Shown piece by piece: positions 8,480 through 57,891 of a stretch of 64,000 nucleotides of DNA. A model generated the notes under the pieces. It did not search any database and was not told where the DNA came from. It saw only the letters and a list, made by a program, of their open reading frames with translations. This DNA comes from a virus, in IMG/VR virus record IMGVR_UViG_3300020438_005037, positions 1-64,000 of that record. One strand, given 5' to 3'. How positions within the stretch are numbered: position 1 is the stretch's first letter; each line of letters begins with the position of its first letter. The translations under genes were made by a program, and so were the position numbers.

Positions 8480-8493
8480 ATTTCAAGTTGGTT

Positions 8494-8520: not shown

Positions 8521-8535
8521 TATTTTTGCAAATTT

Positions 8536-8543: not shown

Positions 8544-8601
8544 CATCACTACACTTATTTTAACAAGTTTAGTTACAATTATCACTTTTTAATGGGAAAA
8601 A

Positions 8602-8785: not shown

Positions 8786-8799
8786 TCCATAAAGGTTAT

Positions 8800-9163: not shown

Positions 9164-9178
9164 TTTTCCAAGGTAAAT

Positions 9179-30484: not shown

Positions 30485-33400
30485 ATGGCAACACGATATC
30501 CATTAATTATTGACTCAACAACAAATAATAAAATAAAAGAACTACCATCAGGTGACGATTTAAATCTAAGTGGTAGCAGCATTGTAAATGTTATTAATGC
30601 AACTGCGAGTGGTACAGTCACAGCAAATGCTGTAGAAGTTACCAGTAACACTTTTAGTGTAGCAGGAAACAGTTTGAATCAAGTTGCTTTCACAGGTAAT
30701 TATAATGATTTATCAAATACTCCTACAGTGTTTAATGGCAATTATGACAATTTAACCAACAAGCCTACACTTAAAACCACAATAGAAAGTCTAGATAATG
30801 TAAGCACCACTGCCCCTGCTGATAACCAAGTATTGCAATATGATAGTAGCAGTAGCACTTATAAACCATCAAGCATAGTATCTGTGAGTTCAAGCAGCAT
30901 TGATGCACTGCTGGATGTCAATGTTAGCAATATTGCTTCGGCTGCAGGGCAGATACTCAAATGGGACGGGAGTGCATGGATCCGCGGTAACGCAAGTTCA
31001 GGTAGTGATGCAGATACACTGGATAGTTTTGAAGGCACTTATTACCTTAATGCAAACAATTTTACAAATTATAAAGTTATTACCAGTGTAGCAGGAGACA
31101 CAGGAAGTTTTACAACCAGCACATCATCTGATACAGTAAATATCCAAGGTGGCACAGGTATTAGCACTGCTGTAACAAGTAATACTTTAACAATCACAAA
31201 TGATTCACCTGATCAGACTGTTGTGTTTACAAATGGCACAAATATCACAGTCACAGGTACCTATCCTAATTTTACTATAGCAACAGACGCTGTAAGTGCA
31301 ACACTAAGCACAATCTCAGTAGCATCAAATAGTTCGCCCAGCGGCAGCGGCAGCATAGCTTTTAATCAATCTACTGGAGCAATAACTTTTACACCACCAG
31401 ATCTTAGCAGCTACTTGACAAGTGTAGGAGTCTTAAGTTCACACACTGACGTTGATGCAACCACTCCTACTTCTGGTCAAGTATTAAAATGGAATGGCAC
31501 TGCGTGGGCACCTGCAGCTGACGGTGGAGGTGGTGGTGGTGGAGGCAGTGGTGATATAGAAGCTGTAACCGCAGGTACAGGTTTAACAGGTGGAGGCACT
31601 GTTGGATCAGTCACACTTAATGTTGATGTTGGTACCACTGCTAACAAAATTGTACAGCTAGATTCAACTGGAAAACTTCCTGCAATAGACGGATCTCAAT
31701 TAACAAATGTTTCCGGCGGAGGAGGAGGTACACAGAATTTATTTTCAACAATTGCAGTGTCTGGACAAAATAATGTAGTGGCTGATGCCACTACAGACAC
31801 ACTTACACTGGTCGCTGGAACAAATATCAGCATCACAACTGACGCTACAAATGACACTATAACATTTGCTAGCTCTGGCGGAGGAGGCACACAGAATGTG
31901 TTTAGTGCAATTGCAGTAGTAGGGCAAAACAGTGTGGTCGCAGATACTACCACTGATATACTAACACTAGCAGAAGGTGGTGGGATCAACATAACTACCA
32001 ATGACACTACCGACACTGTAACGCTTGCAACTTATCTACATTCAGCCACAGCAGGCACTGTAAATAAACTAGACAGTATTGCATTCATAGACGCAGATGA
32101 TAATAGCACAAAAAAAGCCACAATAACCAGTCTAATAACTGAGATTGCAGGAACCAATCTAGCAGTGAGTGGTAATCAATTAAATGCTACTGTTGGATTG
32201 ACAAACATAGTAGAAGACGCATCACCACAACTAGGTGGCGATCTTGATATGAATGGCAAACAAATTCAATATACATTTAACATCACAGCATCTGGAGTTG
32301 ACCATTACGTGTTCAATGATGGCGGGAATGTATTCTTTGCCAGTGGCGGAGTGAATGATCCTACTTTGTATCTTAAACGGGGTGAAATATATGTGTTTAA
32401 CAACACAACTGGAGGGCATCCACTAAGGATACAATCTACACCAGGCGTCAGCGGTACTGCATATAACACAGGCGTTACCAATAATGGAAACACCGGTGCG
32501 GTCACATTTAAAGTGCCTAATGACGCACCTCACCAACTTTACTATCAATGTACTTCACATGGCAACATGCGTGGAGTGATTTATATTGATGCTGTGGATC
32601 TAGACAGTGTAAGTCAATCAGCGATTACTACAGGATCAGACAGCATCGTGTTTATTGATAGCAGTGATGAGAATAAAACCAAAAAAGAACCTATATCAGC
32701 TTTCTTAACAGACATTGCAGGCACTGGTATAACAGTTACAAGTGATCAATTAACAGCAGCAGATACATTTGTTGCGTTATCAGATACACCTGCTAATTTC
32801 ACCAGCGCCGGTGGAAAGATTGTTAAAGTAAATAGTGGCGCTAGCGCATTAGAATTTGCAGATAACAACATTGTCAGCCAACTTAATTCATATGTTACAG
32901 TAACTGATACGGGTACAGATGGTACAGTAACATTACACACTGATGGCACTGACAGATGGAAAGTTACCAGTGGTGGACATCTCATACCGCAGTCTGATGC
33001 GGCATACGATATTGGATCCGCATCGAATAAGATAAGACATATTTTTATAAGTGATAACAGTATCAAATTTGGAGCTGCTGAACTAGCTATGACTGTGACT
33101 GCGAGTAGATTGCACTTTAACAGCAACAAATTGATGATAAATGTGTCTGATGATAGCACTCCTACACTGGCAGGAAATTTAGATGTAGCAACACATAATA
33201 TAGTATCCACAACTAATCAAGATATTACACTAGCACCACACGGCACTGGTAAAGTTAATGTGTCAAGTATCTTAAATATCACAGGAAATCTACAAGGTCC
33301 AAGTAGTTTTACAATAGATCCTGCAGCATATGGTGACAATACTGGTACAGTAATCATCGCAGGCAACTTACAGGTTGACGGCACAACCACCACGATAAAT

Positions 33401-33637
33401 AGTACGACACTTGACATTGATGATATTAATATTACAGTCGCAAAGGGTGCAGCAGATGCCGCTGCAGCTAACGGTGCTGGACTAACAGTAGACGGTGCTT
33501 CAGCTACATTTACATATGCAAGCAGCGGTGACAGATGGGAATCCAATAAAACTATTTGGGTTAACGGATCACAACTCGGAGCTGGTGGAGGCAATACTAC
33601 AGGAAAAGCAATTGCGATGGCAATGGTTTTTGGATAA
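30485..33637 (+). CDS. Tail-fibre protein with a cupredoxin-like domain
   Basis: 1050 residues of low-complexity Ser/Thr/Asn/Gly fibre sequence. Paired GNYNDLSNTP/GNYDNLTNKP units lie near residues 77-97; GQILKWDGSAW and GQVLKWNGTAW units follow; a poly-Gly linker is near residue 350. Two repeats start GGGGTQNLFS/GGGGTQNVFS (about 415 and 470). Residues about 600-705 form a distinct domain: GEIYVFNNTTGGHPLRIQ and LYYQCTSHGNMRGVIYID, with His645, Cys689, His692 and Met695 in type-1 copper spacing (H...C-x2-H-x2-M). Then SDTPANFTSAGGKIVKV, AYDIGSASNKIRHIF and a C-terminal fibre tip. Whether copper binds is unknown. Confidence 0.85.
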   Translation: MATRYPLIIDSTTNNKIKELPSGDDLNLSGSSIVNVINATASGTVTANAVEVTSNTFSVAGNSLNQVAFTGNYNDLSNTPTVFNGNYDNLTNKPTLKTTIESLDNVSTTAPADNQVLQYDSSSSTYKPSSIVSVSSSSIDALLDVNVSNIASAAGQILKWDGSAWIRGNASSGSDADTLDSFEGTYYLNANNFTNYKVITSVAGDTGSFTTSTSSDTVNIQGGTGISTAVTSNTLTITNDSPDQTVVFTNGTNITVTGTYPNFTIATDAVSATLSTISVASNSSPSGSGSIAFNQSTGAITFTPPDLSSYLTSVGVLSSHTDVDATTPTSGQVLKWNGTAWAPAADGGGGGGGGSGDIEAVTAGTGLTGGGTVGSVTLNVDVGTTANKIVQLDSTGKLPAIDGSQLTNVSGGGGGTQNLFSTIAVSGQNNVVADATTDTLTLVAGTNISITTDATNDTITFASSGGGGTQNVFSAIAVVGQNSVVADTTTDILTLAEGGGINITTNDTTDTVTLATYLHSATAGTVNKLDSIAFIDADDNSTKKATITSLITEIAGTNLAVSGNQLNATVGLTNIVEDASPQLGGDLDMNGKQIQYTFNITASGVDHYVFNDGGNVFFASGGVNDPTLYLKRGEIYVFNNTTGGHPLRIQSTPGVSGTAYNTGVTNNGNTGAVTFKVPNDAPHQLYYQCTSHGNMRGVIYIDAVDLDSVSQSAITTGSDSIVFIDSSDENKTKKEPISAFLTDIAGTGITVTSDQLTAADTFVALSDTPANFTSAGGKIVKVNSGASALEFADNNIVSQLNSYVTVTDTGTDGTVTLHTDGTDRWKVTSGGHLIPQSDAAYDIGSASNKIRHIFISDNSIKFGAAELAMTVTASRLHFNSNKLMINVSDDSTPTLAGNLDVATHNIVSTTNQDITLAPHGTGKVNVSSILNITGNLQGPSSFTIDPAAYGDNTGTVIIAGNLQVDGTTTTINSTTLDIDDINITVAKGAADAAAANGAGLTVDGASATFTYASSGDRWESNKTIWVNGSQLGAGGGNTTGKAIAMAMVFG

Positions 33638-34039: not shown

Positions 34040-37000
34040 ATGAAATCAACCCGTTTTATAGGCAACGCCGCTGATCGCACCAGCGGTGTGTACAATCTCA
34101 GTGAAATAAATGAAAAAATACAGGACCAAACCTATCCCACAAACTATGAGATAGAAAATAGTTTACGATTTGACGGAAGCAGCTACCTTAGTAGACCTTT
34201 TACAGCAGGTAATCGGCGAACTCATACGTTGTCTTTTTGGCTAAAAAAATCTGAGAATGTTGATTCTGCCCACCGGTACTTTTTTGACGTAACAGTAGAT
34301 TCTTCTAACTATGCACAAATGTATTTTTACGATAATCAATTAGTTTCGACAGATTACACTTCTGGAAACGATGGTAATTTACATACTAATCGTAAATTTA
34401 GAGATGTCAGTGCATGGTATCACATCGTTCTAGTTAATAATTTAACATCATCTACAAATACTTTAACTGGAACATCGACAGACAGAATACAATTATATGT
34501 AAACGGTGTGCAAGAAACGTCATTTTTAGGTTTTAATATCCCAGCTATAAACTCCACAACTTATATTAATTCGGCTAATACGCATATAATTGGCTGGAAT
34601 ACAGCTAATACTGCTGGTAAAGCGTTTAGTGGATATATGGCAGACATACATTTTGTTGATGGTTCTGCACTAGATCCTACACATTTTGCACACTCACATC
34701 CATCAACCGGACGTTGGTCACCAAAACGATATCGGGGAACCTATGGTAACAACGGTTTCCATTTAGAATTTAAAAACACAGGCACCCATACTGGCGTGGG
34801 CGGAATAGGAGAAGACACCAGTGGCAATGCTAATCACTGGGCGGTCACTGGCTTAACAGTGCATGATATAGTGCCGGATTCTCCCGGCAACAATTTTGTC
34901 ACATGGAATCCTGTATCAAAAAGTGGAGGAACCACTACAACTCTGCATACCATAGCTCAAGGAGCATTACAACTTACTCACATTACAAATGCAGCATGGC
35001 AAGCTCTTTCTGCTACTTTTGGTGCATCAACAGGTAAGTTTTATTATGAAATCCACACTATATCAATATCTAATACCACAAATGACCATGGTTTTGGATT
35101 TGTAACACAGGAAGATATAGATGAAAAGCTATATTATGGTGAATCTAAAACAGTGTTATATACTTTAGATGGCGGCACTTCAAGCATCGCTATAGGTGTT
35201 GGCGGTACATCAGATAGCGGTATAGGCAGGCAAGCTGTAGCATCTAGCATGCCTAAACCTACTAACGGGGATACCATGCAGTGTGTTATAGATTTGGATA
35301 AACGAACAGTTCAATTTGGATTGAACGGAACATTTTATGAAACTGCAAATATCCATTTTGATTACACCACAATGATTCCTGTGTTTAGTTCTTACAAATA
35401 TCAAAATAATGCTACTGCAGCTGATATTGTTGCGAATTTTGGTCAAGATCCTACATTTTCAGGAAACAAAACGGTTACTAAATCCTACACGGATGCTAAC
35501 AATCGTGGACAGTTCTATTATCCACCACCTGCAGGCGCACTGGCTCTGTGCGAAAAGAATCTCGTTCAACCACAAGATTCTGTCAGTGAATATAGAGTAG
35601 ACGATACCGACACCAAAGCATTAACCTACACAGGCAATGTTGAAATATCAAAATTCACACCATATGCACAGGATGGGTACAGCATATATTTGCCGGAATC
35701 AACCAGCGATTATTTAACTGTAAGTCATAATGCTGTACTGAATTTGCCAGCAAATTTTACAATTGATTTTTGGTTGTACGCTATCCAGGTACCGCATAGC
35801 AGTTATTATAATATGGTTGTTCATAAATGGGGTGCTGATGCAGATAAAGAATTCGTTATCCAATATGAGGCAGATGGAAAGTTAAAATTTACTGTAGCAT
35901 CTAATAATACCGGAACATACAATACTCATGCAACTTCTGCAGGGCGTATACAATTTAATACAAAATGGCAGCATGTAGCAATAGTTGGTGATATTACAAA
36001 CACGGCAATAACAAAAATTTACATTGACGGTGTTTTAGATAGTTCTAAAATAGATTGGCCTATGCCCTACTATAATAGTAGCACAGCAAATTTAAGATTT
36101 GGAGAATATGGTTCAAGCACAAATTATACAGATAATCATTATATCAGTGACTTTAGAATAATAAAAGGCACACAGTTGTATTCTGGAAGTAGTTACACTG
36201 TGCCAACTGCTCCTGTTAGTACTACAGATAATAGTCCTTCATTGGTCTTATCAACTAACAGTAAAACTTTTAAGGATAGCAGTGCAAACAATTTAACTGT
36301 CACGCTAACCGGCGCTCCTTCAATAGAAGCGTTCAGTCCTTACACACCAAAAGACAGTGTTCCTGATCACAGTGTGCATGGTGGGAGTTTTTACTTTAAT
36401 GATTCAAATAAAAGAATAGAATTCAACTATGCTAATGCAATCAGCTCACAAGATTATCGTATGGAATTTTGGGTAAATCTTGAATATAAATCTGGCAAAA
36501 CATACTCACATTTGTTTGACCAAAGGGAGGATTCAGATGATACAAGTGGATATGGAATGTGTTGCAATTTCCAATGGTATACTGATGATGGTATCTATGC
36601 TAAAATTTATTTTCTCAGAGGCACCGACCAAAGTATAGCTAATACCACAAAACTACGTCCAAATCAATGGCATCATATTGTTTTAATTAGAAGCTATGCT
36701 GCATTTTTCAAGGTATATATTGATACCGTAGAACAAACTTCATGGTCAAGCGAAACTGCAAAAAATGGTTATTGGGGACAGATTGGTTTCGGTAGAACAC
36801 TCCAACCTATTGGATATACAGCAACAGATACTTCTCTTTATTATATTGGTTATCTAGCAGACGTCAAAATTGATGTTGGCAATAGTGGTACTGACCTTAA
36901 TGCTCCTACTGCTAATCCAACTTCAAAAAAATCTACTGATGCAAACACTAAATTATTACTTCAACCTTACCATACTGCACCTGCACACGGAGCTTTAGAA

Positions 37001-38869
37001 ACACTAGATGCATACAACACAGACGAAACGGGAAAACAAATAACATATCATAAACAAGCAAACGTGGTTAGTGCTAATCCTTTTACTGATGTAAAAATAG
37101 GTAGTGTTAGCATAGGAGGTGCAGTAGGTGATGGAATCGAAATTCCTTCGACAACAGATTTTACGTTTAGCACAGGAGAATTTACAGTAGAAATGTGGGT
37201 TAGACCTACAAATACTACAAGTGCTATTGGAAGAAGAACTCTTATCTCACATAGAAATGCTAACCAATCAGGAACAGATACAACACAATGGGCATGGTTT
37301 ATAAATGATAATAATTTTGAAGTACATGATATAGGCGCTATTAAAGTTAGTGGAGGTGGAGAATTTGGATCAAGTGGAAGTTCTTTAAATAAATGGCATC
37401 ATGTCGTTTGGTGTAGAGATAGTACTAGTATGCGGTTCTATGTTAACGGAATTCTTAAAACTACAATTGCTTATGCTAGTTATAATCCTAATTACTCTAC
37501 AGATCGTCAACTTATAATTGGTAGTGATACTCTTGTAGATTCAACGTTGGACGGATTTATTACAGATGTTCGTATAGTTAAAGGTCAAGCACTTTATGTA
37601 AACGCATTTACAACACCAGCATATCCTTTGTCAAGCACCCATTATACAACAGATGGTACCGATCCTACGACATCTAGCACAAAACAAACTATATCCGGAA
37701 CAGTTAGTTTATTCCTACAACCTGGCAAGACCACATCCAACACACTGGCAGCAGAAAATCCTGAGAAATTTTATAAAGCAATAACTTTTGATGGTACAGG
37801 ACAAACCCAGGCTATATCAGGACTGGCCTTCCAACCAGATCTAGTGTGGATGAAAAATAGGGACACAGCCCAATCTCATGCTTTAGTTGATTCTGTTAGG
37901 ACTAGATCCAAGGTATTATTTTCTGACAGTACTGGTGCTCAACAAACATCGGGATCAACAGAAGATTTAATATCTTTTGATAGTAACGGATTCTCGGTAG
38001 GAACACCTGCAAGAGCAGGATCAACTAATAACTCAGGTAGTTCTATTGTAGCTTGGTCATGGCGAGCCGGTGGGGCACCAAGTGCTGATGGAAAAGCAAT
38101 GATAGATGGCGTAGAAAAAACTATCACAGGTGATGCTATATTAGATGCTGGAACAATTACTCCTACGAAGATAAGTGCAAATACACGAGCAGGTTTTAGT
38201 ATTGTAAAATACACTTCTCCTAATGATAGTAGCGATCAAACTGTGCCACACGGTCTATCTTCGTCCCCAAATTGGATCATAATAAAAAATCTTGACAATA
38301 CTTATAATTGGGATATATATCATTCAAGCGTTAGCAATTCTGGAATCTTTACCACTGCTGCGATAGACAGTCGCAGTGCTTTTGGCACAGTGAACAATAA
38401 TATATTCACAACCAAAATTAATTTTACACACTATAGCACAAATAATTATATTGCCTACTGCTGGCACTCAGTGCCTGGCTATTCTGCATTTGGGAACTAC
38501 ACCGGAGTAGTATCAGGAAAACCATTCATATACACTGGATTTAAACCTGCCTGGGTCATGATTAAAGGAACTGATGTCGCTTATAGTGGTTCAACCAATT
38601 TAGGTTCATATCAAGGATGGTCAATTTTTGATACTGCTAGGGATGATTATAATCCTTCCAAATTGCCACTTTACGCAAATGCAGCTTATAGTGAAGGACT
38701 TGCTGGTAATGGTAGTGGAACTGCTGGTGCATCTGTTGGAGGAATTGATATTGTTTCCAATGGATTTAGAATTTTAGATGGCTCTGCATCCTATAGTGGC
38801 ATTGCTAATATAAACCATATTTACATAGCATTTGCTGAACAACCATTCACAAGGAATCGAGCACGATGA
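34040..38869 (+). CDS. Giant adhesin/tail fibre with LamG, SPRY-like and DUF7483-like domains
   Basis: 1609 residues. Four laminin-G/concanavalin-like units are visible: about 42-235 (SLRFDGSSYLS ... GYMADIHFVDGSALDPTHF), 544-745 (LPANFTIDFWLYA ... IYIDGVLDSS), 781-965 (RMEFWVNLEYKSG ... WHHIVLIRSY) and 1030-1205 (GEFTVEMWVRPTN ... LNKWHHVVWCRDS). Between the first two, about 327-475, sits a SPRY-like sandwich (STGKFYYEIHT ... VQFGLNGTFYE ... IVANFGQDPTF). From about 1243 a DUF7483-like region follows (FQPDLVWMKNRDTAQSHALV, then SIVAWSWRAGGAP, YIAYCWHSVPGYSAFGNYTG). LamG units usually bind glycans, so this is a strong receptor-binding candidate. Confidence 0.85.
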   Translation: MKSTRFIGNAADRTSGVYNLSEINEKIQDQTYPTNYEIENSLRFDGSSYLSRPFTAGNRRTHTLSFWLKKSENVDSAHRYFFDVTVDSSNYAQMYFYDNQLVSTDYTSGNDGNLHTNRKFRDVSAWYHIVLVNNLTSSTNTLTGTSTDRIQLYVNGVQETSFLGFNIPAINSTTYINSANTHIIGWNTANTAGKAFSGYMADIHFVDGSALDPTHFAHSHPSTGRWSPKRYRGTYGNNGFHLEFKNTGTHTGVGGIGEDTSGNANHWAVTGLTVHDIVPDSPGNNFVTWNPVSKSGGTTTTLHTIAQGALQLTHITNAAWQALSATFGASTGKFYYEIHTISISNTTNDHGFGFVTQEDIDEKLYYGESKTVLYTLDGGTSSIAIGVGGTSDSGIGRQAVASSMPKPTNGDTMQCVIDLDKRTVQFGLNGTFYETANIHFDYTTMIPVFSSYKYQNNATAADIVANFGQDPTFSGNKTVTKSYTDANNRGQFYYPPPAGALALCEKNLVQPQDSVSEYRVDDTDTKALTYTGNVEISKFTPYAQDGYSIYLPESTSDYLTVSHNAVLNLPANFTIDFWLYAIQVPHSSYYNMVVHKWGADADKEFVIQYEADGKLKFTVASNNTGTYNTHATSAGRIQFNTKWQHVAIVGDITNTAITKIYIDGVLDSSKIDWPMPYYNSSTANLRFGEYGSSTNYTDNHYISDFRIIKGTQLYSGSSYTVPTAPVSTTDNSPSLVLSTNSKTFKDSSANNLTVTLTGAPSIEAFSPYTPKDSVPDHSVHGGSFYFNDSNKRIEFNYANAISSQDYRMEFWVNLEYKSGKTYSHLFDQREDSDDTSGYGMCCNFQWYTDDGIYAKIYFLRGTDQSIANTTKLRPNQWHHIVLIRSYAAFFKVYIDTVEQTSWSSETAKNGYWGQIGFGRTLQPIGYTATDTSLYYIGYLADVKIDVGNSGTDLNAPTANPTSKKSTDANTKLLLQPYHTAPAHGALETLDAYNTDETGKQITYHKQANVVSANPFTDVKIGSVSIGGAVGDGIEIPSTTDFTFSTGEFTVEMWVRPTNTTSAIGRRTLISHRNANQSGTDTTQWAWFINDNNFEVHDIGAIKVSGGGEFGSSGSSLNKWHHVVWCRDSTSMRFYVNGILKTTIAYASYNPNYSTDRQLIIGSDTLVDSTLDGFITDVRIVKGQALYVNAFTTPAYPLSSTHYTTDGTDPTTSSTKQTISGTVSLFLQPGKTTSNTLAAENPEKFYKAITFDGTGQTQAISGLAFQPDLVWMKNRDTAQSHALVDSVRTRSKVLFSDSTGAQQTSGSTEDLISFDSNGFSVGTPARAGSTNNSGSSIVAWSWRAGGAPSADGKAMIDGVEKTITGDAILDAGTITPTKISANTRAGFSIVKYTSPNDSSDQTVPHGLSSSPNWIIIKNLDNTYNWDIYHSSVSNSGIFTTAAIDSRSAFGTVNNNIFTTKINFTHYSTNNYIAYCWHSVPGYSAFGNYTGVVSGKPFIYTGFKPAWVMIKGTDVAYSGSTNLGSYQGWSIFDTARDDYNPSKLPLYANAAYSEGLAGNGSGTAGASVGGIDIVSNGFRILDGSASYSGIANINHIYIAFAEQPFTRNRAR

Positions 38870-38884
38870 TTAAAGGAATATTAA

Positions 38885-41416
38885 ATGCCTAAACGCATAG
38901 GAAACACACAAACACCTAGTACTGCTGGACTTACAGATATAATTAATCTAAAACAACATAAAAACTTTGTTGAACAAGGTATATTTCCTAGTACAGACAA
39001 TCATGTTGTAAACAGTTTACGATTTGATGGCAGTAGTTATTTGAGTTTTACCCCCTCCAGCACTGGCAACAGTGATATTTGGACAATTAGTGCTTGGGTC
39101 AAACAGTCAACAGTGCCTGGAGGAGTAATTTTTAACAGTGGTACTTCTACTAGATTTTTATTAGGGCCATATAGCACAAATGGATTTTATGTTTTACGAT
39201 ATCCAAGTTATCCAATAAATGCTTATACAAAGGAAAAACATCGAGATGTAAACGCATGGTATCATTTCGTTGTCGAGGTAAACACTACACAGTCATCGTT
39301 GGCAAGTGCATTTAAAATATATCAAAACGGTGTTTTATTGTCATTTGCTACTACTACATATTCAATTACCACATTAAACACTAATACTTCTGGCGTTCCG
39401 ATGTATATTGGTCAAGACGGTAATTCTACTAATCGGTGGAATGGATACATGGCTGAAGTAAATTTTATTGATGGGCAGGCATTATCGCCTACACATTTTG
39501 GTTATTACAATAGAAGTACTGGTCAATGGAAGTCAAAAAAGTACACAGGCACATATGGTGCAAATGGTTTCCTATTAGAATTCAAAGATAGTAGTAATGT
39601 AGGTAAAGATACAAGTGGAAATGGCAACGATTGGAATGGTACAGGCTTTGCAAGTTCAGATTTTGTATCAGATTCACCACATAATAATCATTCTGTCTGG
39701 AATGTTTTAGCTGGAAGAAATAAAAACAGCATTTTGCCGTTTATACAGCCGACTTTTAGTGAAGGAAACACAAAGTTAACAGGGCATTCAACTGATGTCG
39801 TACACGCAATTGGTACGATTAGTTCAAGCGGAAAACATTATGCTGAATTTGTTGTAAGTGGAGGAACATCAGTAATCACTGGTGTTGGGGTAATTAGTAG
39901 CGAATGGGATAAATCTAATCTACAGTCATATATTTATAATTTTGGAGGAGCAATATACGCTGCAGTTGGAACTTTATATAGCTCATCAACTACTGATACA
40001 AACCCAGATCCAATAACAACTTCGTTTAGAATTGCAATTGAAGTTGATTTTAATGCGAATACTGTCAACTTTTTTAAAGTTGAGACTGATGGAAGTGGTG
40101 GTTATACAAAAACACCACAAGGTGCAGAACTAACATCTACAAATGGTATTGATTTTAAAGGTTCAGGTTCATTTGCAGCGACACTTCATTCTACTTCTCA
40201 TTATGTGGAAGCATATTTTGATGCAGATGAATGGTGGGGAACGCCAAGTGCGGGCTTTACTGCATTATGTACACAGGATATTCCAACACCTGCAACAGAA
40301 AATCCTCAAGATTATTTTAAATGTGTAAAATATACCTTGCCTGGATTGAATAACACTGCATTTAATGTTCCGGTTGGATTTGATGCTGATCTACATTGGG
40401 TAAAATGCACTGATGCAGGTGAACAGCACTACTTATTTGATACTGTCAGAAACACTGGCACTACCTACAATAAATTTTTAAACAGTGACAGTAATAACAG
40501 TGAATCTGCAGCAGATAATAATATAACGAACGCACAGGTAACAAAAATATCTAATGGATTTAGCGTACAAACTCCAGATCAAACAAGTGGTGAATTATAT
40601 TTTGGCACAAGAACTTATATCGCATGGAACTGGCGAGCAGGAGGTTCTCCCACAGCAAATGACAAAGCAATGATTGATGGTGTAGAAAAGACTATCACAG
40701 GTGATGCTGTATTAGATGCTGGTACAATTACTCCTACGAAGATAAGTGCAAATACAAAAGCAGGTTTTAGTATAATACAGTATGTTGGCACTCGAACTAG
40801 CACTGCTTCTGATACGATGTCACATGGATTATCTAGTGCTCCTGAATTACTTTTAATGAAAAACTTAGACAAAAATGCTCACTGGAGTGCTTACACTATT
40901 CATGCTGCTGGAGGTGGTTATTTGAGTCTCACTGACGCATGGGGGACATCTAGAGCAACTTGGATGGTAAATGATCAAAATCCTACAAATTCTCTTATTA
41001 CTGTAGGGTGGAATGCGGATAATGTGAATCAAAATGGAGACAACCACCTTATATATGCTTGGCACTCAGTACCTGGCTATTCTGCATTTGGTTCGTATAA
41101 GGGTAATAATACTGACAATGACGGAGTTTTTGTATACACCGGATTTAAGCCAGCAGTTTTGATACTACGCAGCTCAGACGCTAGTACAGGTCGAGACTGG
41201 ATAATAGTCGATAACGCAAGATCACCTCATAACCCAATTGATCATGTGTTAATGCCAAATACTAGTGGCGTAGAAAATACACTCTACGATAATCCAGTAG
41301 ATTTTTTATCCAACGGATTTAAGCTAAAAACAAATGAAGCAAATTTTAATGCTGCTGAAACACACATATATGCAGCTTTTGCCGAGCAACCAACAAACTT
41401 CACCACAGCTAGATAA
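38885..41416 (+). CDS. Second LamG/SPRY/DUF7483-like adhesin
   Basis: 843 residues, a shorter relative of the preceding gene: one LamG unit at about 47-225 (NSLRFDGSSYLSFTP ... GYMAEVNFIDGQALSPTHFG), a SPRY-like unit about 290-420 (ISSSGKHYAEFVVSGG ... IAIEVDFNANTVNFF), and a DUF7483-like C-terminal part from 476 (VGFDADLHWVKCTDAGEQHY ... IYAWHSVPGYSAFGSYKGN). A block around residues 593-625 is nearly identical to the previous gene at DNA level (40665-40757 against 38094-38186). The N-termini differ, so the two fibres may attach differently or be alternative adhesins. Confidence 0.82.
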   Translation: MPKRIGNTQTPSTAGLTDIINLKQHKNFVEQGIFPSTDNHVVNSLRFDGSSYLSFTPSSTGNSDIWTISAWVKQSTVPGGVIFNSGTSTRFLLGPYSTNGFYVLRYPSYPINAYTKEKHRDVNAWYHFVVEVNTTQSSLASAFKIYQNGVLLSFATTTYSITTLNTNTSGVPMYIGQDGNSTNRWNGYMAEVNFIDGQALSPTHFGYYNRSTGQWKSKKYTGTYGANGFLLEFKDSSNVGKDTSGNGNDWNGTGFASSDFVSDSPHNNHSVWNVLAGRNKNSILPFIQPTFSEGNTKLTGHSTDVVHAIGTISSSGKHYAEFVVSGGTSVITGVGVISSEWDKSNLQSYIYNFGGAIYAAVGTLYSSSTTDTNPDPITTSFRIAIEVDFNANTVNFFKVETDGSGGYTKTPQGAELTSTNGIDFKGSGSFAATLHSTSHYVEAYFDADEWWGTPSAGFTALCTQDIPTPATENPQDYFKCVKYTLPGLNNTAFNVPVGFDADLHWVKCTDAGEQHYLFDTVRNTGTTYNKFLNSDSNNSESAADNNITNAQVTKISNGFSVQTPDQTSGELYFGTRTYIAWNWRAGGSPTANDKAMIDGVEKTITGDAVLDAGTITPTKISANTKAGFSIIQYVGTRTSTASDTMSHGLSSAPELLLMKNLDKNAHWSAYTIHAAGGGYLSLTDAWGTSRATWMVNDQNPTNSLITVGWNADNVNQNGDNHLIYAWHSVPGYSAFGSYKGNNTDNDGVFVYTGFKPAVLILRSSDASTGRDWIIVDNARSPHNPIDHVLMPNTSGVENTLYDNPVDFLSNGFKLKTNEANFNAAETHIYAAFAEQPTNFTTAR

Positions 41417-41447: not shown

Positions 41448-42569
41448 ATGAAATACATACGTAAAGAAATTATCAAAGGCATAGAACCAATCGCAGATCA
41501 AGATCTTAGCGTAGACGGAAACCTTGCGGTTGCTGGTAATATTGCGGTTACTGGCACAGGCTTACCAACAAAGTCTACAATAGGTTTGGAATACAACGAT
41601 ACATTTTATGAAGATGTAACAAACAGTCTAAATGCATATTCAAATGCTCAAAATCTTAGCGACGGGTCCAGAAATTGGAGACTGGTTGTAAATGATGCAG
41701 TGGTAGCTAGTGTTACCAGCACAACGAGCACAGCAGTATCAGCGACACATCCTTTGTGGACCTACAACGGTAACACATATGGTATGTATAACTTTGCCAC
41801 GAGTTCGCAAACCCTGAAAGGCAACAACTCTATTGACCATCGTGTGTACAAAATAAATCATCTTCCAGGTGATGTGTTAGAATTCGATCAAACCACAGAA
41901 AAATTCAAGCCAAAAAGATACGATACCCTGTGGGACGCAAAAGCCAGTGGCACAGGTGCAGCCGTTTTAACTAGCAATTTAGTTAACAGTGTCAATGGTC
42001 AAACTGGTGCAGTTACCATATCGACTGGTGGTGCAGTAAAACAACACAGTCATCATTTTTATAGTCAAAGTGCAACTGCTTTAACTTTAGGAGGTTCATC
42101 ACCCTATTATCCACAGGATTATGATCTAGTCAATGGTTCTACAGGTATTACCATAACAAAACAAGATAGTGCTACTAAATTATCCGCAGTTACCCACTTC
42201 AGTGTTACACTTACTCCTGGAAGTGGCAATGCGAAATACTTAGGTTCTGTAGGATTCGAAGAAGCCTTTACTCGAACTATAGGTAATAGTTCTAACCTTT
42301 TTTGGTTTGGTCCTGCTTCCGTTGTAGATAGTCCTACACATAATGTATTAACAGATGGATTCCACACAGGCAATGGGCAATCTAAGATTACTAGGATGGG
42401 TAATTTTATAAATTACCTTGAACTAGACACTGGCGGACAATATGCAGCGAACACAACTTGGACAAGTTTTAGAATAATCGCTAGACTCCAGCCATTTTCA
42501 TATTGGGCTAGTAATTCATCAGGTGTATTCGCAGCTATTACAGCAATAACAACAATACTTGAAAGTTAA
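41448..42569 (+). CDS. Tail-fibre protein with MKYIRKE N-terminal module (copy 1)
   Basis: 373 residues. The first 20 residues, MKYIRKEIIKGIEPIADQDL, recur at the start of the genes at 42575 and 48420. Then come SVDGNLAVAGNIAVTGTG (beta-strand repeats of fibre shafts), a globular part (residues 45-130), VNSVNGQTGAVTIS (a common phage fibre motif) and a C-terminal domain with GGAVKQHSHHFYSQSATALT and an aromatic-rich end. The conserved start is probably the attachment point to the baseplate or another fibre. Receptor specificity unknown. Confidence 0.78.
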   Translation: MKYIRKEIIKGIEPIADQDLSVDGNLAVAGNIAVTGTGLPTKSTIGLEYNDTFYEDVTNSLNAYSNAQNLSDGSRNWRLVVNDAVVASVTSTTSTAVSATHPLWTYNGNTYGMYNFATSSQTLKGNNSIDHRVYKINHLPGDVLEFDQTTEKFKPKRYDTLWDAKASGTGAAVLTSNLVNSVNGQTGAVTISTGGAVKQHSHHFYSQSATALTLGGSSPYYPQDYDLVNGSTGITITKQDSATKLSAVTHFSVTLTPGSGNAKYLGSVGFEEAFTRTIGNSSNLFWFGPASVVDSPTHNVLTDGFHTGNGQSKITRMGNFINYLELDTGGQYAANTTWTSFRIIARLQPFSYWASNSSGVFAAITAITTILES

Positions 42570-42574
42570 TTTAT

Positions 42575-43495
42575 ATGAAATATATACGTAAAGAAATATC
42601 AAAAGGTGTAAAACCAATTGCAGATCAAGACTTTAAAATTACAGGTGATATAGATATCACGGGCAATTATTTGCAAAACGGTTCTCCATTCAGTAGTTTT
42701 GATGCTACTGCCAGCAACACATTTACTGCAGGCCAAAAGGTAGATGTTACAGACAACACTAACCCTGCTTTTAAAATTACACAAAAAGGTACTGGGCTTA
42801 CACTTATTGTGCAGGACGAAACAGAAACTTTTACAGATGTATCAACCACAAACACATATGTCGAGAGGTTGAATCTATCCTCTACATATTGGCAGTACAA
42901 ATTCAACATAAATGGAGTGTATGTTGGTAGTACCACAACTGGTATAAATGACGCTCCTACAGTAGCAAATACAACATTTACACATAACGGTGAAAATTAC
43001 AGTCCTTTTAATTCTACCACTAGCGGCATCGTAGGTTATGCAGATCCAGGAACTCCTTCCACATATAGAATCTATAAGTATTATCCTCCATTTGTCATAA
43101 AGGCAGATGGAAAAGTCGGTATTGGTAAAACCGCGCCTACACAACCTTTAGATGTGGTAGGAAATATAAATACCACTGGAAATTATCTTGTGAATGGTAG
43201 TCCATTATCTACTAACATCACAAAACAAGAAAATAAAATAGTCGCAACAAGTGATGCACAAACTGTGTTTACATTTAGTACAGCCTTTATCGGGTATGAT
43301 TCAACCACACCTGCAAACAGTGATCTAGATGTATATTGGAATGGTGCAAGATTAATATATGGCACTAACAATGATTATACAATAACTGCTAACAATGCAA
43401 TTACACTTACCAGTGGCACTGGTGTGCAGACTGGCGATATTATTTACATAAACAGTCGTAATAATATTATTCTAGATCGAGATTATACACCATGA
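42575..43495 (+). CDS. Tail-fibre protein with MKYIRKE N-terminal module (copy 2)
   Basis: 306 residues. Starts MKYIRKEISKGVKPIADQDF followed by KITGDIDITGNYLQNGSP. A second shaft-like unit near residues 190-240 repeats the theme (KVGIGKTAPTQPLDVVGNIN, TTGNYLVNGSPL). The C-terminal 80 residues (VFTFSTAFIGYDSTTPANSD ... TGVQTGDIIYINSRNNIIL) form a compact beta domain seen in other phage tail proteins. Its stop overlaps the first propeller gene by 4 bases. Confidence 0.78.
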   Translation: MKYIRKEISKGVKPIADQDFKITGDIDITGNYLQNGSPFSSFDATASNTFTAGQKVDVTDNTNPAFKITQKGTGLTLIVQDETETFTDVSTTNTYVERLNLSSTYWQYKFNINGVYVGSTTTGINDAPTVANTTFTHNGENYSPFNSTTSGIVGYADPGTPSTYRIYKYYPPFVIKADGKVGIGKTAPTQPLDVVGNINTTGNYLVNGSPLSTNITKQENKIVATSDAQTVFTFSTAFIGYDSTTPANSDLDVYWNGARLIYGTNNDYTITANNAITLTSGTGVQTGDIIYINSRNNIILDRDYTP

Positions 43496-44721
43496 GTGTA
43501 AAAAATAAGATACTTCCTAAAATAACGATTACAAATCTGACTAACAATTTTACTCAAACAAAAAAAATACAAGCTAGTGATAGACCTGGTTGGTATGCAC
43601 AATTTGGAACTGCAGTAGATGTTTCTGCCAACCATATAATAGTAGGTGCTTATCAGGATCCCAGCTATATTAGTAAAGGTGCTGCATACTTATTTGGCAT
43701 CGATGGCGGTGAAATTGTTAAATTACTACCTAGTGATTCGGCTCAAAATGATAGATTTTCTACACAAAATAATCATGGAGTTGCTATAACAAAAAGGCGA
43801 GTCTATGTCGGAACTAGCGACAAAGATTCTGGTAAAGGTGCTGTTTACTTTTTTGATTTAACCGGCACTCAGTTAATGAAGTTACAACCTAGTGATTTAG
43901 CTAATTATAATAGTTTTGGTATGAGTATGGCTGCTACAGAGTCTAGACTTGTGGTAGCTGCTCCTCAGCAAACTATTACAAATACATATGAGGGATCTGC
44001 TTATATATTTGATATTGACGGTAATCAGCTAGGTAAGATAGCAGCAGGTGATCCTCAAAATTACAAGCTTTTTGGTCGTTCAATTGCTTTGTCTGATACT
44101 AGGATTGTTGTAGGTGGCACGAAAGATAATGTTAAAGGAACTGATGCAGGAGCTGCATATGTGTTTGACATACATGGCACTCAGTTAGCTAAGTTATATG
44201 CTCCAGATGCTCAAGCATATGATTATTTTGGTCGTTCAATTGCCGTGTCTGATACTAGGATTGTTGTAGGAACGAACTGGGACTCTCATGAGGGAGGTGA
44301 GCCGGAAAACAACCCCCATAATAATCTTAAAGGAGCTGCTTACATTTATGACAAAGACGGTACTTTTATAAAAAGGCTTCAGCCTAATGACTTATCAGCC
44401 GCAGACAGTGAAGGTTTCGGTGGTTCAAAATTTGGATATTCGGTTGATTGTTCAAATAGCAGGATTGTAGTAAGTTGTAAGGACGGTAGTAGTGTTTACA
44501 TATTTAACAACAATGGCGATCAGTTAGCTAAAATTATTTCCAGTGATCATAGTAGTAATGATAATTTTGGCTATGGACTTGCTGTATCAGATACAAATAT
44601 TATAGTAGGTGCTCCACAAAACTCTACAGCTGGATCAGCATATATTTTTAAAAATTTTTACAATCACATACCTAGTATAAATTTTGATAAACTACGAAGT
44701 CATTTTACAGGAAAAATCTGA
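43492..44721 (+). CDS. FG-GAP seven-bladed beta-propeller protein, type A (copy 1)
   Basis: 409 residues with seven FG-GAP-like blades. Markers are FGTAVDVS, a diverged FSTQNNHGVAIT, FGMSMAAT, FGRSIALS, FGRSIAVS, FGYSVDCS and FGYGLAVS, each followed by a RIVVG-like strand and usually a GAAYxFDxxGxQL strand. FG-GAP propellers resemble the integrin-alpha head and often bind proteins or glycans. The C-terminal tail INFDKLRSHFTGKI is shared with the third gene of the set but not the second or fourth. No signal peptide. Most likely a virion-surface adhesin or fibre tip. ATG overlaps the preceding fibre stop. Confidence 0.82.
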   Translation: MSVKNKILPKITITNLTNNFTQTKKIQASDRPGWYAQFGTAVDVSANHIIVGAYQDPSYISKGAAYLFGIDGGEIVKLLPSDSAQNDRFSTQNNHGVAITKRRVYVGTSDKDSGKGAVYFFDLTGTQLMKLQPSDLANYNSFGMSMAATESRLVVAAPQQTITNTYEGSAYIFDIDGNQLGKIAAGDPQNYKLFGRSIALSDTRIVVGGTKDNVKGTDAGAAYVFDIHGTQLAKLYAPDAQAYDYFGRSIAVSDTRIVVGTNWDSHEGGEPENNPHNNLKGAAYIYDKDGTFIKRLQPNDLSAADSEGFGGSKFGYSVDCSNSRIVVSCKDGSSVYIFNNNGDQLAKIISSDHSSNDNFGYGLAVSDTNIIVGAPQNSTAGSAYIFKNFYNHIPSINFDKLRSHFTGKI

Positions 44722-46002
44722 ATGAAAAATATTTTCCAAGATACTACTACTGAAACTTTAACAGCAGCTACCTTAGACAAACTCGAGGAACACAGATCAA
44801 TTGGTCAATATATAAGGAAAATCCAAGCTAGTGATAAAGCAGCAGATGATGGTTTTGGTTATTCAGTGGCTGTATCAAATTCAAGGATTATTATAGGTGC
44901 TCCTTATGAAGACACAGGAGCAAGCAATGCCGGTGCTGCCTATTTATTTGACATAGATGGAAATGAAATCAAAAAAATCACACCGTCTTATGCAGAATCA
45001 GATGCTAATTTTGGTTATGCAGTTGCTATCTCTGACAGGTGGATAGCCATTGGTGAACCTGGTGCTAATGCTGGAGCTGATCGTACAGGTAATGTTAGTA
45101 TTTACGATATAGATGGTAATGTGAAGGGTTATGGTGCTTCTGAGGCTGAGGATGACAGTTATTTTGGTCAAGCAGTTTCAATAACTAATAACAGGCTGGC
45201 AGTGGGCGTACCACTTCACTACGATAACGTTGCAAACGTAGGAGCGGTATTTGTATACAGAATACAAGAAAATGGTAACTGTACATATCTTTCAAAGTTG
45301 CAAGCTAGTGATAAAACAGGCGGAGATAAGTTTGGATACTCAGTCGCAATTTCTGATACCTGTATAGTGGCAGGTGCTCCTTATGCTACTGAGTCAGGCG
45401 GTTACTATTATGGTGCAGCATATATTTTTGACATGAATTTTGCACAAACAGCTATTATTACAAATAGTGGGATACATCTTGGTGATCATTTTGGTTGGTC
45501 AGTGGCAGCATCTAACTCAAAGATTGTTGTTGGTGCTATTGGGGCTAATGGACCTGCTGATTCAGGAAGGGCATATATCTTTGACACAAGTGGCACACAA
45601 CTAGCTACTCTTGCAGCAAGTGACGCAAGCACTAGTGACGAATTTGGATACTCGGTAGCTATATCCAACAACAGGATTTTAGTAGGCGCACGATACGAAG
45701 ATTTGGACGGTACTGCATCGCAACAGAAGGGTTCTGCGTATATATTTGATTTAAACGGAACACAAATAAAAAAGATATCCGCAAGAGATCCTGAAAATGC
45801 TGATGAATTTGGAAGACGTGTTGCAATATCCGATACTAAGATAGTAGTTGGTACGAATCTCGAAGACACTGGTGGAAGTAATGCAGGCGCTGCCTATATT
45901 TACGATGCTGGATTTTCACCGTTAGGAGATCTCTGTGCGTTTTATAATTTAGGAAATCCAACTAGTATAGATTCAAATTTCCTGTGGAGTAATTATACGT
46001 GA
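44722..46002 (+). CDS. FG-GAP seven-bladed beta-propeller protein, type B (copy 1)
   Basis: 426 residues. A 35-residue N-terminal helix region (TLDKLEEHRSIGQYIRKIQA) is followed by seven blades (FGYSVAVS, FGYAVAIS, FGQAVSIT, FGYSVAIS, FGWSVAAS, FGYSVAIS, FGRRVAIS). The C-terminal cap GFSPLGDLCAFYNLGNPTSI, running on to a LWSNYT end, recurs only in the fourth propeller gene. It starts directly after the type A stop and ends in a GTGA overlap with the next gene. Type A and type B proteins may assemble together as a pair. Confidence 0.82.
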   Translation: MKNIFQDTTTETLTAATLDKLEEHRSIGQYIRKIQASDKAADDGFGYSVAVSNSRIIIGAPYEDTGASNAGAAYLFDIDGNEIKKITPSYAESDANFGYAVAISDRWIAIGEPGANAGADRTGNVSIYDIDGNVKGYGASEAEDDSYFGQAVSITNNRLAVGVPLHYDNVANVGAVFVYRIQENGNCTYLSKLQASDKTGGDKFGYSVAISDTCIVAGAPYATESGGYYYGAAYIFDMNFAQTAIITNSGIHLGDHFGWSVAASNSKIVVGAIGANGPADSGRAYIFDTSGTQLATLAASDASTSDEFGYSVAISNNRILVGARYEDLDGTASQQKGSAYIFDLNGTQIKKISARDPENADEFGRRVAISDTKIVVGTNLEDTGGSNAGAAYIYDAGFSPLGDLCAFYNLGNPTSIDSNFLWSNYT

Positions 46003-47168
46003 GTATTAAAGCAAAAATAATAGAAAGATTTGTGTCTGTAAATAAAAAAAAATACCTAGGGTCTAATACTTTTACAGAAATAAAAAAAATGCAATCACAT
46101 GATATAACTACAGGTGATAAATTTGGCTGGTCAGTAGCAGCAAGTGACACAAGGATAGTAGTAGGTGCTCCTGAAGAAGACACTGGTGGGAGTAATGCTG
46201 GTAGTGCCTATATATTTGATATGGATGGAACTCAGATTGCAAAAATACAAGCAGGCGATAAAGCAGCAGGAGATCAATTTGGTTTCTCAGTAGCAGTGTC
46301 AAGTAATAGGATAGTGATTGGTGCTCCTCTAGAAGGCACTGGTGGCAGTGCATATATATTTGATATTCATGGTAATCAACTAACAAAGATTACTGCTAAT
46401 GACGCTGAAGCTAGTGATGCATTTGGAATATCAGTAGCAGCAAGTGATACAAAAATAGTAGTAGGTGCTTGGTCAGAAGATACTGGGGGTAGTTCAGCAG
46501 GTGCGGCATACATCTATAATATAGACGGTTCCCAAATTTCTAAAATACAAGCAAGCGATAAGGCTACATTAAATCAATTTGGTTGGTCAGTGGCTGCATC
46601 AAATAACAGGATAGTGGTTGGGGCTAGAAAAGCAGGTACTGGAGGTGCTGTATATATATTTGATGTAAGCGGTACCCAATTAACAAAGATCACTGCTAGT
46701 GACGCTGAAGCTGATGATCAGTTTGGATATGCAGTAGCAGCATCTGATACAAATATTATAGTAGGCGCTCCTTTGGAAGATACCGGCGGCAGTTATGCAG
46801 GAGCAGCATATATATACGACCTAGATGGCAATCAAATTTCAAAAATTACTGCCAGTGATGCTGCGGGTAATGATAATTTTGGTTGGTCAGTTGGTGTTAC
46901 AAACACACATGTTATTGTCGGCGCATATGTAGGATCTGCTGCATATGTGTTTGATTTAAAAGGCAATCAACTGTCTATAATAACTGCCAGTGACGGTGCT
47001 GGTGGTTGGTATGGTTATTCGGTTGATATAAGCAGTAGTAGGATGGTTATAGGAGCTCCGACAGTGGCTAGTAGTGCAGGAGCAGCATATGTTAATAGGA
47101 GATATGTTAACAGCTACAATGAAATACCTTGGGATAAAATTAGATTGCAATTTACAGGAAAAGTATAA
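45999..47168 (+). CDS. FG-GAP seven-bladed beta-propeller protein, type A (copy 2)
   Basis: 389 residues from a GTG overlapping the previous stop by 4 bases. Seven blades (FGWSVAAS, FGFSVAVS, FGISVAAS, FGWSVAAS, FGYAVAAS, FGWSVGVT, YGYSVDIS) with regular RIVVGAPEEDTGGSNAGSAY-type repeats. It ends in the type A tail (NEIPWDKIRLQFTGKV). The N-terminus MSIKAKIIERFVSVNKKK resembles that of copy 1 (MSVKNKILPKITITN). More regular than copy 1, so either it is younger or it has been homogenised. Confidence 0.82.
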   Translation: MSIKAKIIERFVSVNKKKYLGSNTFTEIKKMQSHDITTGDKFGWSVAASDTRIVVGAPEEDTGGSNAGSAYIFDMDGTQIAKIQAGDKAAGDQFGFSVAVSSNRIVIGAPLEGTGGSAYIFDIHGNQLTKITANDAEASDAFGISVAASDTKIVVGAWSEDTGGSSAGAAYIYNIDGSQISKIQASDKATLNQFGWSVAASNNRIVVGARKAGTGGAVYIFDVSGTQLTKITASDAEADDQFGYAVAASDTNIIVGAPLEDTGGSYAGAAYIYDLDGNQISKITASDAAGNDNFGWSVGVTNTHVIVGAYVGSAAYVFDLKGNQLSIITASDGAGGWYGYSVDISSSRMVIGAPTVASSAGAAYVNRRYVNSYNEIPWDKIRLQFTGKV

Positions 47169-48362
47169 ATGACAGCTGATGATTTGAAAAAAAAATATGG
47201 ATATGAGCCTGTTGGGCAACAAATTAAAAAAATACAAGCTAGTGCACAAGCCGATGATAATTTTGGTCTTTCAGTAGCAGCGTCAAGTAGTAGGATAGTA
47301 GTTGGTGCTCCTTTTGAAGATACTACTGCTAGCAATGCTGGTAGTGCATACATATTTGATATAAATGGTAAACAGTTTAGAAAAATACAAGCCAATGATG
47401 CTGCAGCAAATGACTATTTTGGTTCTGCCGTTGCAGTGTCAGATACTAGAATTGTAGTTGGTGCTTATGGAGAAGATACTACTGCTAGTGATGCTGGTAG
47501 TGCTTATATATTTGACATATATGGGAACCAGTTAGCCAAGATACAAGCCAATGATGCTGAAGCTAGTGATAATTTTGGTACTGCTGTTGCAGTGTCAGAT
47601 TCACGTATTGTGGTAGGAGCTCGGTATGAAGATGCTGGTGCCAGCCAGGCTGGCGCAGCATATATTTTCGATATACACGGCAATCAGTTAGCCAAGATTA
47701 CTGCGAGTGATGCTGAAGCTAGTGATAATTTTGGTTATGCTGTTGCATGTTCAGATTCACGTATTGTGGTAGGTGCAGATGGGGAAGATACTGGTGGCAT
47801 TCTTGCTGGTGCTGCTTACATATTTGACATAAATGGTACCGAACTAGCAAAAATACAAGCCAATGATGCAGCAGCTAATGATAGTTTTGGTTTTTCAGTA
47901 GCTGCATCAAATTCAATGATTGTGGCCGGAGCACATAGGAATAGCAGTAATGCTGGTGCTGCTTACATATTTGACATAAATGGTACTCAACTAGCAAAAA
48001 TACAAGCCGGTGATGTAGGCAATAGTAACTTTGGTTTTTCAGTAGCAGTGTCAAATAAATGGATTGTGATAGGTGCTCCTTATACAAATGCTGGTAGTGT
48101 TTACATATTTGACATAAACCGCAATCAAATAACTAAGCTACAAGCTAGTGATGCACAAACTGATGACCATTTTGGTAGATTCGTTGCGGTTTCCGATAAC
48201 CGGATTGTGGTAGGTGCTCCGACTTCGGACGATGCAGGCACTATTGGTAGTGCTTACATATTTTCTTCTGGTTTTTCGCCCTTTGGTGACCTGTGTGCAT
48301 ATTATGATTTAGGAGATCCTACAACGTTAGATACAACTTTCTCATGGAGTGATTACAAATAG
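47169..48362 (+). CDS. FG-GAP seven-bladed beta-propeller protein, type B (copy 2)
   Basis: 397 residues. Short N-terminal helix (TADDLKKKYGYEPVGQQIKK), then seven blades at regular 49-52-residue spacing (FGLSVAAS, FGSAVAVS, FGTAVAVS, FGYAVACS, FGFSVAAS, FGFSVAVS, FGRFVAVS), closed by the type B cap GFSPFGDLCAYYDLGDPTTL. Blades 3 and 4 are nearly identical in DNA over about 27 bases (47553 and 47709 onward) and similar beyond. It is the last of four consecutive propeller genes and is followed by 57 non-coding bases. Confidence 0.82.
   Translation: MTADDLKKKYGYEPVGQQIKKIQASAQADDNFGLSVAASSSRIVVGAPFEDTTASNAGSAYIFDINGKQFRKIQANDAAANDYFGSAVAVSDTRIVVGAYGEDTTASDAGSAYIFDIYGNQLAKIQANDAEASDNFGTAVAVSDSRIVVGARYEDAGASQAGAAYIFDIHGNQLAKITASDAEASDNFGYAVACSDSRIVVGADGEDTGGILAGAAYIFDINGTELAKIQANDAAANDSFGFSVAASNSMIVAGAHRNSSNAGAAYIFDINGTQLAKIQAGDVGNSNFGFSVAVSNKWIVIGAPYTNAGSVYIFDINRNQITKLQASDAQTDDHFGRFVAVSDNRIVVGAPTSDDAGTIGSAYIFSSGFSPFGDLCAYYDLGDPTTLDTTFSWSDYK
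47553..47735 (+). repeat. 156-bp direct repeat within the fourth propeller gene
   Basis: A 27-base identical block at 47553-47579 and 47709-47735, with nearly matching flanks such as CAGATTCACGTATTGTGGTA downstream in both. The period is 52 codons, one propeller blade, so slippage or recombination here would add or remove whole blades without a frameshift. Confidence 0.7.
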
Positions 48363-48419: not shown

Positions 48420-48581
48420 ATGAAATACATACGAAAAGAAATTATCAAGGGCATAGAACCAATTGCAGATCAAGACTTCAAAATCACAGGTGATATTGAT
48501 ATTACTGGTAGTTACTTACAAACCGAACCTGGAGGTGGTATTAAATGGATACATAACAGCACAGATGCTGCGCATAAATAA
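48420..48581 (+). CDS. Orphan 53-residue fibre N-terminal module (MKYIRKE copy 3)
   Basis: Reads MKYIRKEIIKGIEPIADQDF, then KITGDIDITGSYLQ and a short unrelated end with GGGIKWIHNSTDAAHK. The first 34 residues match the starts of the fibres at 41448 and 42575, but the protein stops where their shafts begin. TATAGGAAC lies ahead of the ATG. Either a truncated fibre left after module exchange or a deliberately short attachment plug. The 57 bases before it contain an A/T-only hairpin (48363-48380) and no gene. Confidence 0.65.
   Translation: MKYIRKEIIKGIEPIADQDFKITGDIDITGSYLQTEPGGGIKWIHNSTDAAHK
48573..48580 (+). promoter_or_regulatory. Late-type motif CATAAATA
   Basis: ATAAATA core 18 bases before the ATG at 48599, overlapping the last codons of the orphan module. 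Confidence 0.5.
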
Positions 48582-48598: not shown

Positions 48599-49297
48599 AT
48601 GAGTATAGAAACTATTAACATAGGGAATATTGCTAATGATGGTACTGGTGACGATCTTAGACAAGCATTTATAAAAGTTAATAACAATTTCACTGATTTG
48701 AACAGTATGATTAATTCAACTGCGATAACTGGTGAAAATTTAGGATCAGAAACAGGTGTGTTTGCACAAAAATCAGACACAACTCTACAATTTAAGAGTC
48801 TAAGAGCAGGTACTGGAGTAACATTAAGTAATAATGGTACCAGTATTACTATAACTGGCAATCCCGGATTAGAACAACTTATCACAGTAAGTGATAACGG
48901 AAGCATTATTTCTCCCGGAGGCAATCAAACTATAGCAATCCAAGGTGGGACAAATATTTCTACTCGTGTAGCTGGCACTGTTTTAAATATTGATGTGACT
49001 GGTTCAAATTTAGTTGCCTTGGATACTTCGCCAAAATTAACTGGTGCACTTAATGCTAATAATCAAAGTATAAATTCAGTTGATAAAATTACAGCAGTTG
49101 ATTTCATAGGAAATGTCACAGGTCTTGTGCATGGAATAGATGTAAGGAATATAAGTGACAAACTAGTTGATGTAGATTTAGGCTCCTTCGAAACTGTAAC
49201 AAACATATTAGATTTAATTTTAATAAATTATGATTTTGATCTTGGTTCATTTGCTAGTCCTTCCAGTGTGGTGATAGATGGCGGCTTCCTAGTTTAA
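48599..49297 (+). CDS. Tail-fibre protein with INIG...NDGTGD N-terminal module
   Basis: 232 residues. Begins TINIGNIANDGTGDDLRQAF followed by IKVNNNFTDLN, the module of the giant fibre at 21836. The middle has fibre-shaft beta repeats (LRAGTGVTLSNNGTSITITG, GGNQTIAIQGGTNISTRVAG). The C-terminus LGSFASPSSVVIDGGFLV looks like a small closing domain. It is much shorter than other fibres and may be a connector or a short tail fibre. AAGGAAATATT precedes the ATG. Confidence 0.75.
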   Translation: MSIETINIGNIANDGTGDDLRQAFIKVNNNFTDLNSMINSTAITGENLGSETGVFAQKSDTTLQFKSLRAGTGVTLSNNGTSITITGNPGLEQLITVSDNGSIISPGGNQTIAIQGGTNISTRVAGTVLNIDVTGSNLVALDTSPKLTGALNANNQSINSVDKITAVDFIGNVTGLVHGIDVRNISDKLVDVDLGSFETVTNILDLILINYDFDLGSFASPSSVVIDGGFLV

Positions 49298-57810: not shown

Positions 57811-57826
57811 TAAGTTCTCCTTTAAT

Positions 57827-57845
57827 GTGTAGGTAATGCCTACAC
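57827..57845 (-). promoter_or_regulatory. Inverted repeat in the phoH leader (operator or RNA hairpin)
   Basis: GTGTAGG (57827-57833), 5-base spacer, CCTACAC (57839-57845), 17 bases upstream of the phoH start on the minus strand. A TTGACG on that strand (57860-57865) may be its -35. The position is right for a repressor site or a translational hairpin. Confidence 0.4.
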
Positions 57846-57891
57846 TAATATTTATGAACGTCAACAAATCATTAAACTGCACTGTATATGC

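Follow-up and report, generated by a model that had tools for sequence, protein, structure and literature searches.

The FG-GAP propeller is a classic fold by which animal cell-adhesion receptors bind their ligands, and the integrin alpha propeller (PDB 3v4v, 5ffg and others) shares with the phage proteins described here the same seven-bladed fold (Z 38–41.5 over ~340 residues, 20–23% identity) and, on one face, D-A and B-C loops that vary. The phage propellers differ from it in consisting of FG-GAP_2 rather than FG-GAP repeats and in bearing short type-specific heads and tails. The integrin calcium motif DxDxDGxxD was present in none of the eleven phage propellers tested, and neither thigh or calf leg domains nor a beta subunit were named among the proteins scanned in the window, i.e., the whole 64,000-nucleotide stretch of viral DNA analysed here.

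The receptor-binding propeller of Staphylococcus phage phi11 has five blades and takes cell-wall sugars as its ligand, and we know of no FG-GAP repeats in that protein. It provides a case of a phage tail device that recognises its host through a beta-propeller (PMC4901313), but it is a different protein from those in the sets described below, with stem and platform domains and encoded by a single gene. In cyanophage S-TIM5, one protein of ~400 aa (AEZ65754, H6WG31) forms a single propeller, is labelled a virion structural protein in its record, and shares 35.7% identity with the last propeller of the window, B2 (83% covered); unlike the window proteins, it comes from an unpaired gene that lies apart from any tail cassette, and it has no A or B ends. 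Two other phages carry two or three seven-bladed FG-GAP propellers together, as the sets do, but in a single chain and not as separate genes with typed ends: a 3692-aa protein of the 469-kb Sinorhizobium phage Phosso opens with 21 blades (3 × 7) followed by a glycine-rich stretch, and C48C1 has 14 blades (2 × 7). The first-pass annotation of the window, made from its sequence, knew of no described equivalent of its four-gene arrangement, and none was found in the literature searched, a body in which subscription papers were scarcely represented.

Four seven-bladed propeller genes in a tail module

The window comes from an IMG/VR virus record of 70,009 bases, whose clamp loader, PhoH, gp9-like baseplate connector and large tail fibres are T4-like signatures. 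The clamp loader was closest (47%) to those of PA5oct-like Pseudomonas phages, and the record is therefore probably a fragment of a larger genome. The four propeller genes lie in a tail module, between tail-fibre/baseplate genes (Table 1).

Table 1. Positions of the propeller genes and their neighbours in the window
Feature	Position	Strand	Basis
Baseplate wedge/tail-fibre connector, gp9-like (phrog_677); marks the baseplate-tail module	30485..33637	+	
Two large virion/tail-fibre proteins (phrog_19943, phrog_24898; DUF7483 in the second)	34040..41416	+	
Upstream gene, 4-base overlap with A1	42575..43495	+	
A1, seven-bladed FG-GAP_2 propeller, 409 aa, A-type tail INFDKLRSHFTGKI	43492..44721	+	Pfam + blade HMM
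B1, seven-bladed FG-GAP_2 propeller, 426 aa, B-type tail GFSPLGDLCAFYNLGNPTSIDSNFLWSNYT	44722..46002	+	Pfam + blade HMM
A2, seven-bladed FG-GAP_2 propeller, 389 aa, GTG start, A-type tail IPWDKIRLQFTGKV	45999..47168	+	Pfam + blade HMM
B2, seven-bladed FG-GAP_2 propeller, 397 aa, B-type tail GFSPFGDLCAYYDLGDPTTLDTTFSWSDYK	47169..48362	+	Pfam + blade HMM
Gene with N-terminus like baseplate/tail-fibre connector (phrog_677; weak T4_gp9_10_N)	48599..49297	+	

The FG-GAP_2 family (PF14312) matched A1, B1, A2, and B2 with E-values of 4e-63 to 9e-96 in 6, 7, 7, and 7 stretches, respectively, and with 210–314 bits per protein, above the curated cut-off of 23 bits. Across the whole record, Pfam detected 27 blades; the 28th is the degenerate blade 6 of A1 (residues 293–338), which was recovered with 25 bits by an HMM built from the blades of this window, so that the count became 7, 7, 7, and 7, exactly as had been read from the sequence. 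The proteins consist almost entirely of these repeats and end 20–35 residues past blade 7. The genes are as tightly packed as first described, with 4-base overlaps of the ATGA/GTGA type at 43492 and 45999 and direct stop-start abutment at 44722 and 47169. Both A-B pairs of the window thus have a stop followed by an in-frame ATG; stop-codon read-through fusing A to B was considered and rejected, because the corresponding junctions in a related contig (L010, see below) overlap out of frame, which makes the window junctions ordinary tight packing and no conserved fusion.

The genes fall into two alternating classes by their ends. The A tail of genes 1 and 3 follows the pattern I-[NP]-[FW]-D-K-[IL]-R-x-x-F-T-G-K and the B tail of genes 2 and 4 the pattern GFSPxGDLCAxYxLGxPT. 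The scores for A1-A2 and B1-B2 tails were 57 and 124, respectively, neither of which was reached in 5000 shuffles, and cross-class pairs scored 11–23, at or near the chance level given by the shuffles; the A-B-A-B pattern and the tail sequences quoted for it in the first-pass annotation were therefore correct. The matching N-terminal types proposed at the same time are real, but on the window alone the similarity of the heads is weak (97 and 20 of 5000 shuffles for A1-A2 and B1-B2, respectively), and it was L010 that made the B heads clear.

An N-terminus of the form MKYIRKEI(I/S)KG(I/V)(E/K)PIADQD occurs in three copies in this region (41448–41500, 42575–42630, and 48421–48580). The third copy, just past the propeller cassette, stops at ~50 residues, as would a cut-off duplicate of the fibre genes upstream, and is perhaps a scar of cassette exchange.

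Ordered propeller sets in other viral contigs

The IMG/VR contig L010 (IMGVR_UViG_3300021425_003324) carries four seven-bladed genes in the same A-B-A-B order as the window, and directly upstream of its A1 counterpart lies a gene that ends like the one preceding A1 in the window (C-terminal region). The ends of the two quartets correspond (Table 1 names; L010 genes marked b): the tails scored 62 for A1-A1b, 79 for A2-A2b, and 164 for B2-B2b, with the B1 tails hardly discriminating (128 versus 126), and the heads scored 44 for B1-B1b and 69 for B2-B2b. The blades of the two phages, on the other hand, shared 51.1% identity within the same class versus 51.3% with the other class. The A/B difference is thus confined to the short heads and tails, the blades carrying no type signal. 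Because the same set with one-to-one matching ends is present in both phages, the A-B unit, whose duplication had been suggested from the window, was duplicated before they diverged, and all four genes have been retained since.

The two quartets also differ. In L010, B2 is extended beyond its B tail by Gly_rich_2 (PF21722, E 1.6e-22), a domain known from phage tail proteins, whereas B2 of the window stops at the B tail. The blades of L010 are homogenised (mean DNA identity 78%, up to 88%), with a nearly fixed scaffold and seven strongly variable positions, and those of the window are much less so (56%). The types of gene junction differ between the two phages as well.

The searches covered IMG/VR, GenBank phages, and, in one scan, GTDB genomes. 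The survey of viral metagenomes for A-B pairs that had been proposed as a check yielded the full quartet in one further IMG/VR contig, and the A/B type as defined here comprises two phages; pattern searches of IMG/VR with the A and B tails gave no genuine relative beyond the L010 contig, which implies either a rare type or rapid divergence of its tails. An apparent B-tail relative from the viral contig search, L014, proved to be an antisense chance match in unrelated genes, and a 19-residue match in Arthrobacter from the GTDB scan was likewise taken as chance.

A scan with the three-gene set of another contig, L015, returned 44 loci; in many of them three seven-bladed genes lie side by side, with ends of three types, here named X, Y, and Z. 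The genes of L015 were at first read as A'-B'-A', a reading abandoned for X-Y-Z once more relatives had been compared. We distinguished eight X/Y/Z arrays, two of them close variants of others, from approximately six lineages (L046/L050, L053, L054/L075, L063, L065, and L077); contigs from shared metagenomes are not fully independent of one another. Each complete array consisted of one X, one Y, and one Z (8/8), in the order X-Y-Z in most arrays and Y-Z-X in L063 and L065. Typing by tails alone agreed with typing by heads alone, each giving a unique optimum among 7776 assignments for six arrays. The limits of the ends used here were set by eye following a first HMM cut, and it was from these ends that the types had initially been assigned. 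The triad blades again showed no type signal (58.2 and 58.1% identity for the same and other types, respectively). Several uncultured phage lineages, to judge from these arrays, keep ordered propeller sets with typed ends.

The X/Y/Z ends had no similarity to the A/B ends, and the two kinds of set therefore need not work alike. The triads adjoin tail-fibre genes with the Peptidase_S74 chaperone in four lineages (L015, L053, L065, and L077), with PHROGs tail-fibre matches too, and a gene bearing Gly_rich_2 lies downstream of the triad in L065. Incomplete arrays were apparently cut by contig ends, except in L083, where FG-GAP genes of only four and two blades (7884–9797) are apparently broken up and may belong to a decaying set. 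Upstream of the triad in L077, one protein (104–3490) has BNR/Sortilin-type repeats and an additional FG-GAP propeller of its own.

Propeller fold and its variable face

A PDB sequence search gave weak integrin matches only (E 0.04 or worse), so a fold comparison was needed. AlphaFold2 (AF2) models were all-beta, seven-repeat propellers and confident, although the underlying alignments were very shallow. The A2-B2 pair was modelled as an in-frame read-through, with TAA coded as Q solely for the purpose of modelling. Both propellers were confident (blocks mostly 70–95), with a pTM of 0.52 from 5 aligned sequences, and both tails had pLDDT <50. The model of B2b comprised one confident propeller, with the tail and the Gly_rich_2 part left unmodelled; its best solved neighbours were integrin alpha subunits (Z 41.5, rmsd 2.6 Å over 340 residues, 23% identity), in agreement with the integrin-like character first assigned to the window proteins.

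In ten arrays, with strands taken from the A2-B2 model, all eight blade positions with a mean entropy of at least 2 bits fell in the D-A and B-C loops. By the usual propeller convention, these loops form one face, which is the ligand face in integrins. Single propellers used as a control varied at the same positions as the sets, so the variable face supports a binding face for the family as a whole and is no hallmark of the sets; only the stronger homogenisation of the scaffold was typical of several of them. A diversity-generating retroelement is an unlikely source of this variation, as the variable positions hold residues such as W, Q, K, E, and M, which would not fit AAY-type mutagenesis.

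A candidate multi-propeller adhesin

The four window genes are best explained as integrin-alpha-like seven-bladed propellers in a tail-fibre/baseplate cassette of a T4-like phage. The short head and tail of each propeller would anchor it at one particular slot, of type A or B, with the two A-B pairs not identical; the docking site would be an adjacent propeller or else a component of the fibre or baseplate that the propellers share. The propellers would jointly form a hetero-multimeric adhesin, in which blades could be swapped from slot to slot and, in any one genome, would evolve in concert, and the D-A and B-C loop residues, free to vary on one face, would contact ligands on the host surface. 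The chances that the set is such an adhesin of exchangeable propellers, with end-tags assigning the slots, appear to us about even; the location in the virion, the physical association of A with B, and the binding of ligands are the steps we infer. The finding of X-Y-Z triads independently in other phages lends weight to the idea that A and B are partners. We suggest, more tentatively, that the quartets and triads could be an unrecognised kind of tail adhesin, a heteromer of fixed order (A-B-A-B or X-Y-Z) in which end-tags place the subunits and blades are exchanged to renew the variable binding face. The novelty lies in the organisation in sets, the kind of protein being already known and the hetero-oligomer a presumed one. 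Ordered sets with typed ends and interchangeable, variable blades point to a modular host-recognition device, and offer a testable model of how a phage binding face may be renewed without disturbing assembly.

The propellers might instead be independent decorations, each docking by its own tail at an unrelated virion site (fibre, baseplate, or head) and binding host ligands alone, with A and B never touching and their order kept by co-transcription alone. This is less likely in our view, although propellers do exist as stand-alone genes. The first-pass annotation had held that single propellers without partners in other phages would refute its pairing of A and B; such propellers were indeed found in the cultured phages S-TIM5 and Vibrio phage nt-1 and in several contigs, including L009, but the A and B tails were absent from the propellers of all three named examples. 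The AF2 model of A2-B2, with its pTM of 0.52 from few sequences, gives no confident A-B arrangement, and the differing junctions of the window and L010 mean that no one kind of translational coupling is conserved, both of which sit well with independent docking. Every complete triad, however, has one of each of the three types in a fixed cyclic order, and the full quartet is present in both A/B phages (2/2); such constancy of composition and order across loci that are unrelated speaks more for assembly together than for separate action, and the several propellers joined in one chain in other phages also suggest that neighbours belong together.

It is improbable that the copies serve mainly as a reservoir of diversity, letting blades recombine and refresh the binding face, with the ends serving as general anchors to the virion and the number of copies structurally irrelevant. 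The homogenisation of blades within arrays such as L010 and the lack of a type signal in them would fit such a role, but a set used in this way should survive the loss of a copy, whereas every type is retained in each complete array; moreover, the ends keep their one-to-one identity between phages, and the blades of the window are much less homogenised. Most improbable is a function outside the virion, with the proteins made in the infected cell and acting, for example, on the host surface. The FG-GAP gene of nt-1 would suit it, lying outside any annotated tail module, among small hypothetical genes and beside a nicotinate phosphoribosyltransferase gene. The window cassette lies between tail-fibre and baseplate genes, however, the triads adjoin S74 tail fibres, the homologue in S-TIM5 carries the annotation of a virion structural protein, and the N-termini of A1, B1, A2, and B2 showed, by inspection, no hydrophobic signal-like stretch.

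Elsewhere in the window, purine synthesis genes were observed at 2567–3835 and 11032–13572, encoding a PurA/PurZ-like adenylosuccinate synthetase (phrog_1211) and SAICAR synthetase-like and PurM-like proteins. The genes for tRNA-Thr(TGT) and tRNA-Pro(TGG) are adjacent at 5826–5984. The PhoH-like ATPase (57082–57882) is encoded on the minus strand, unlike almost every other plausible gene of the window.
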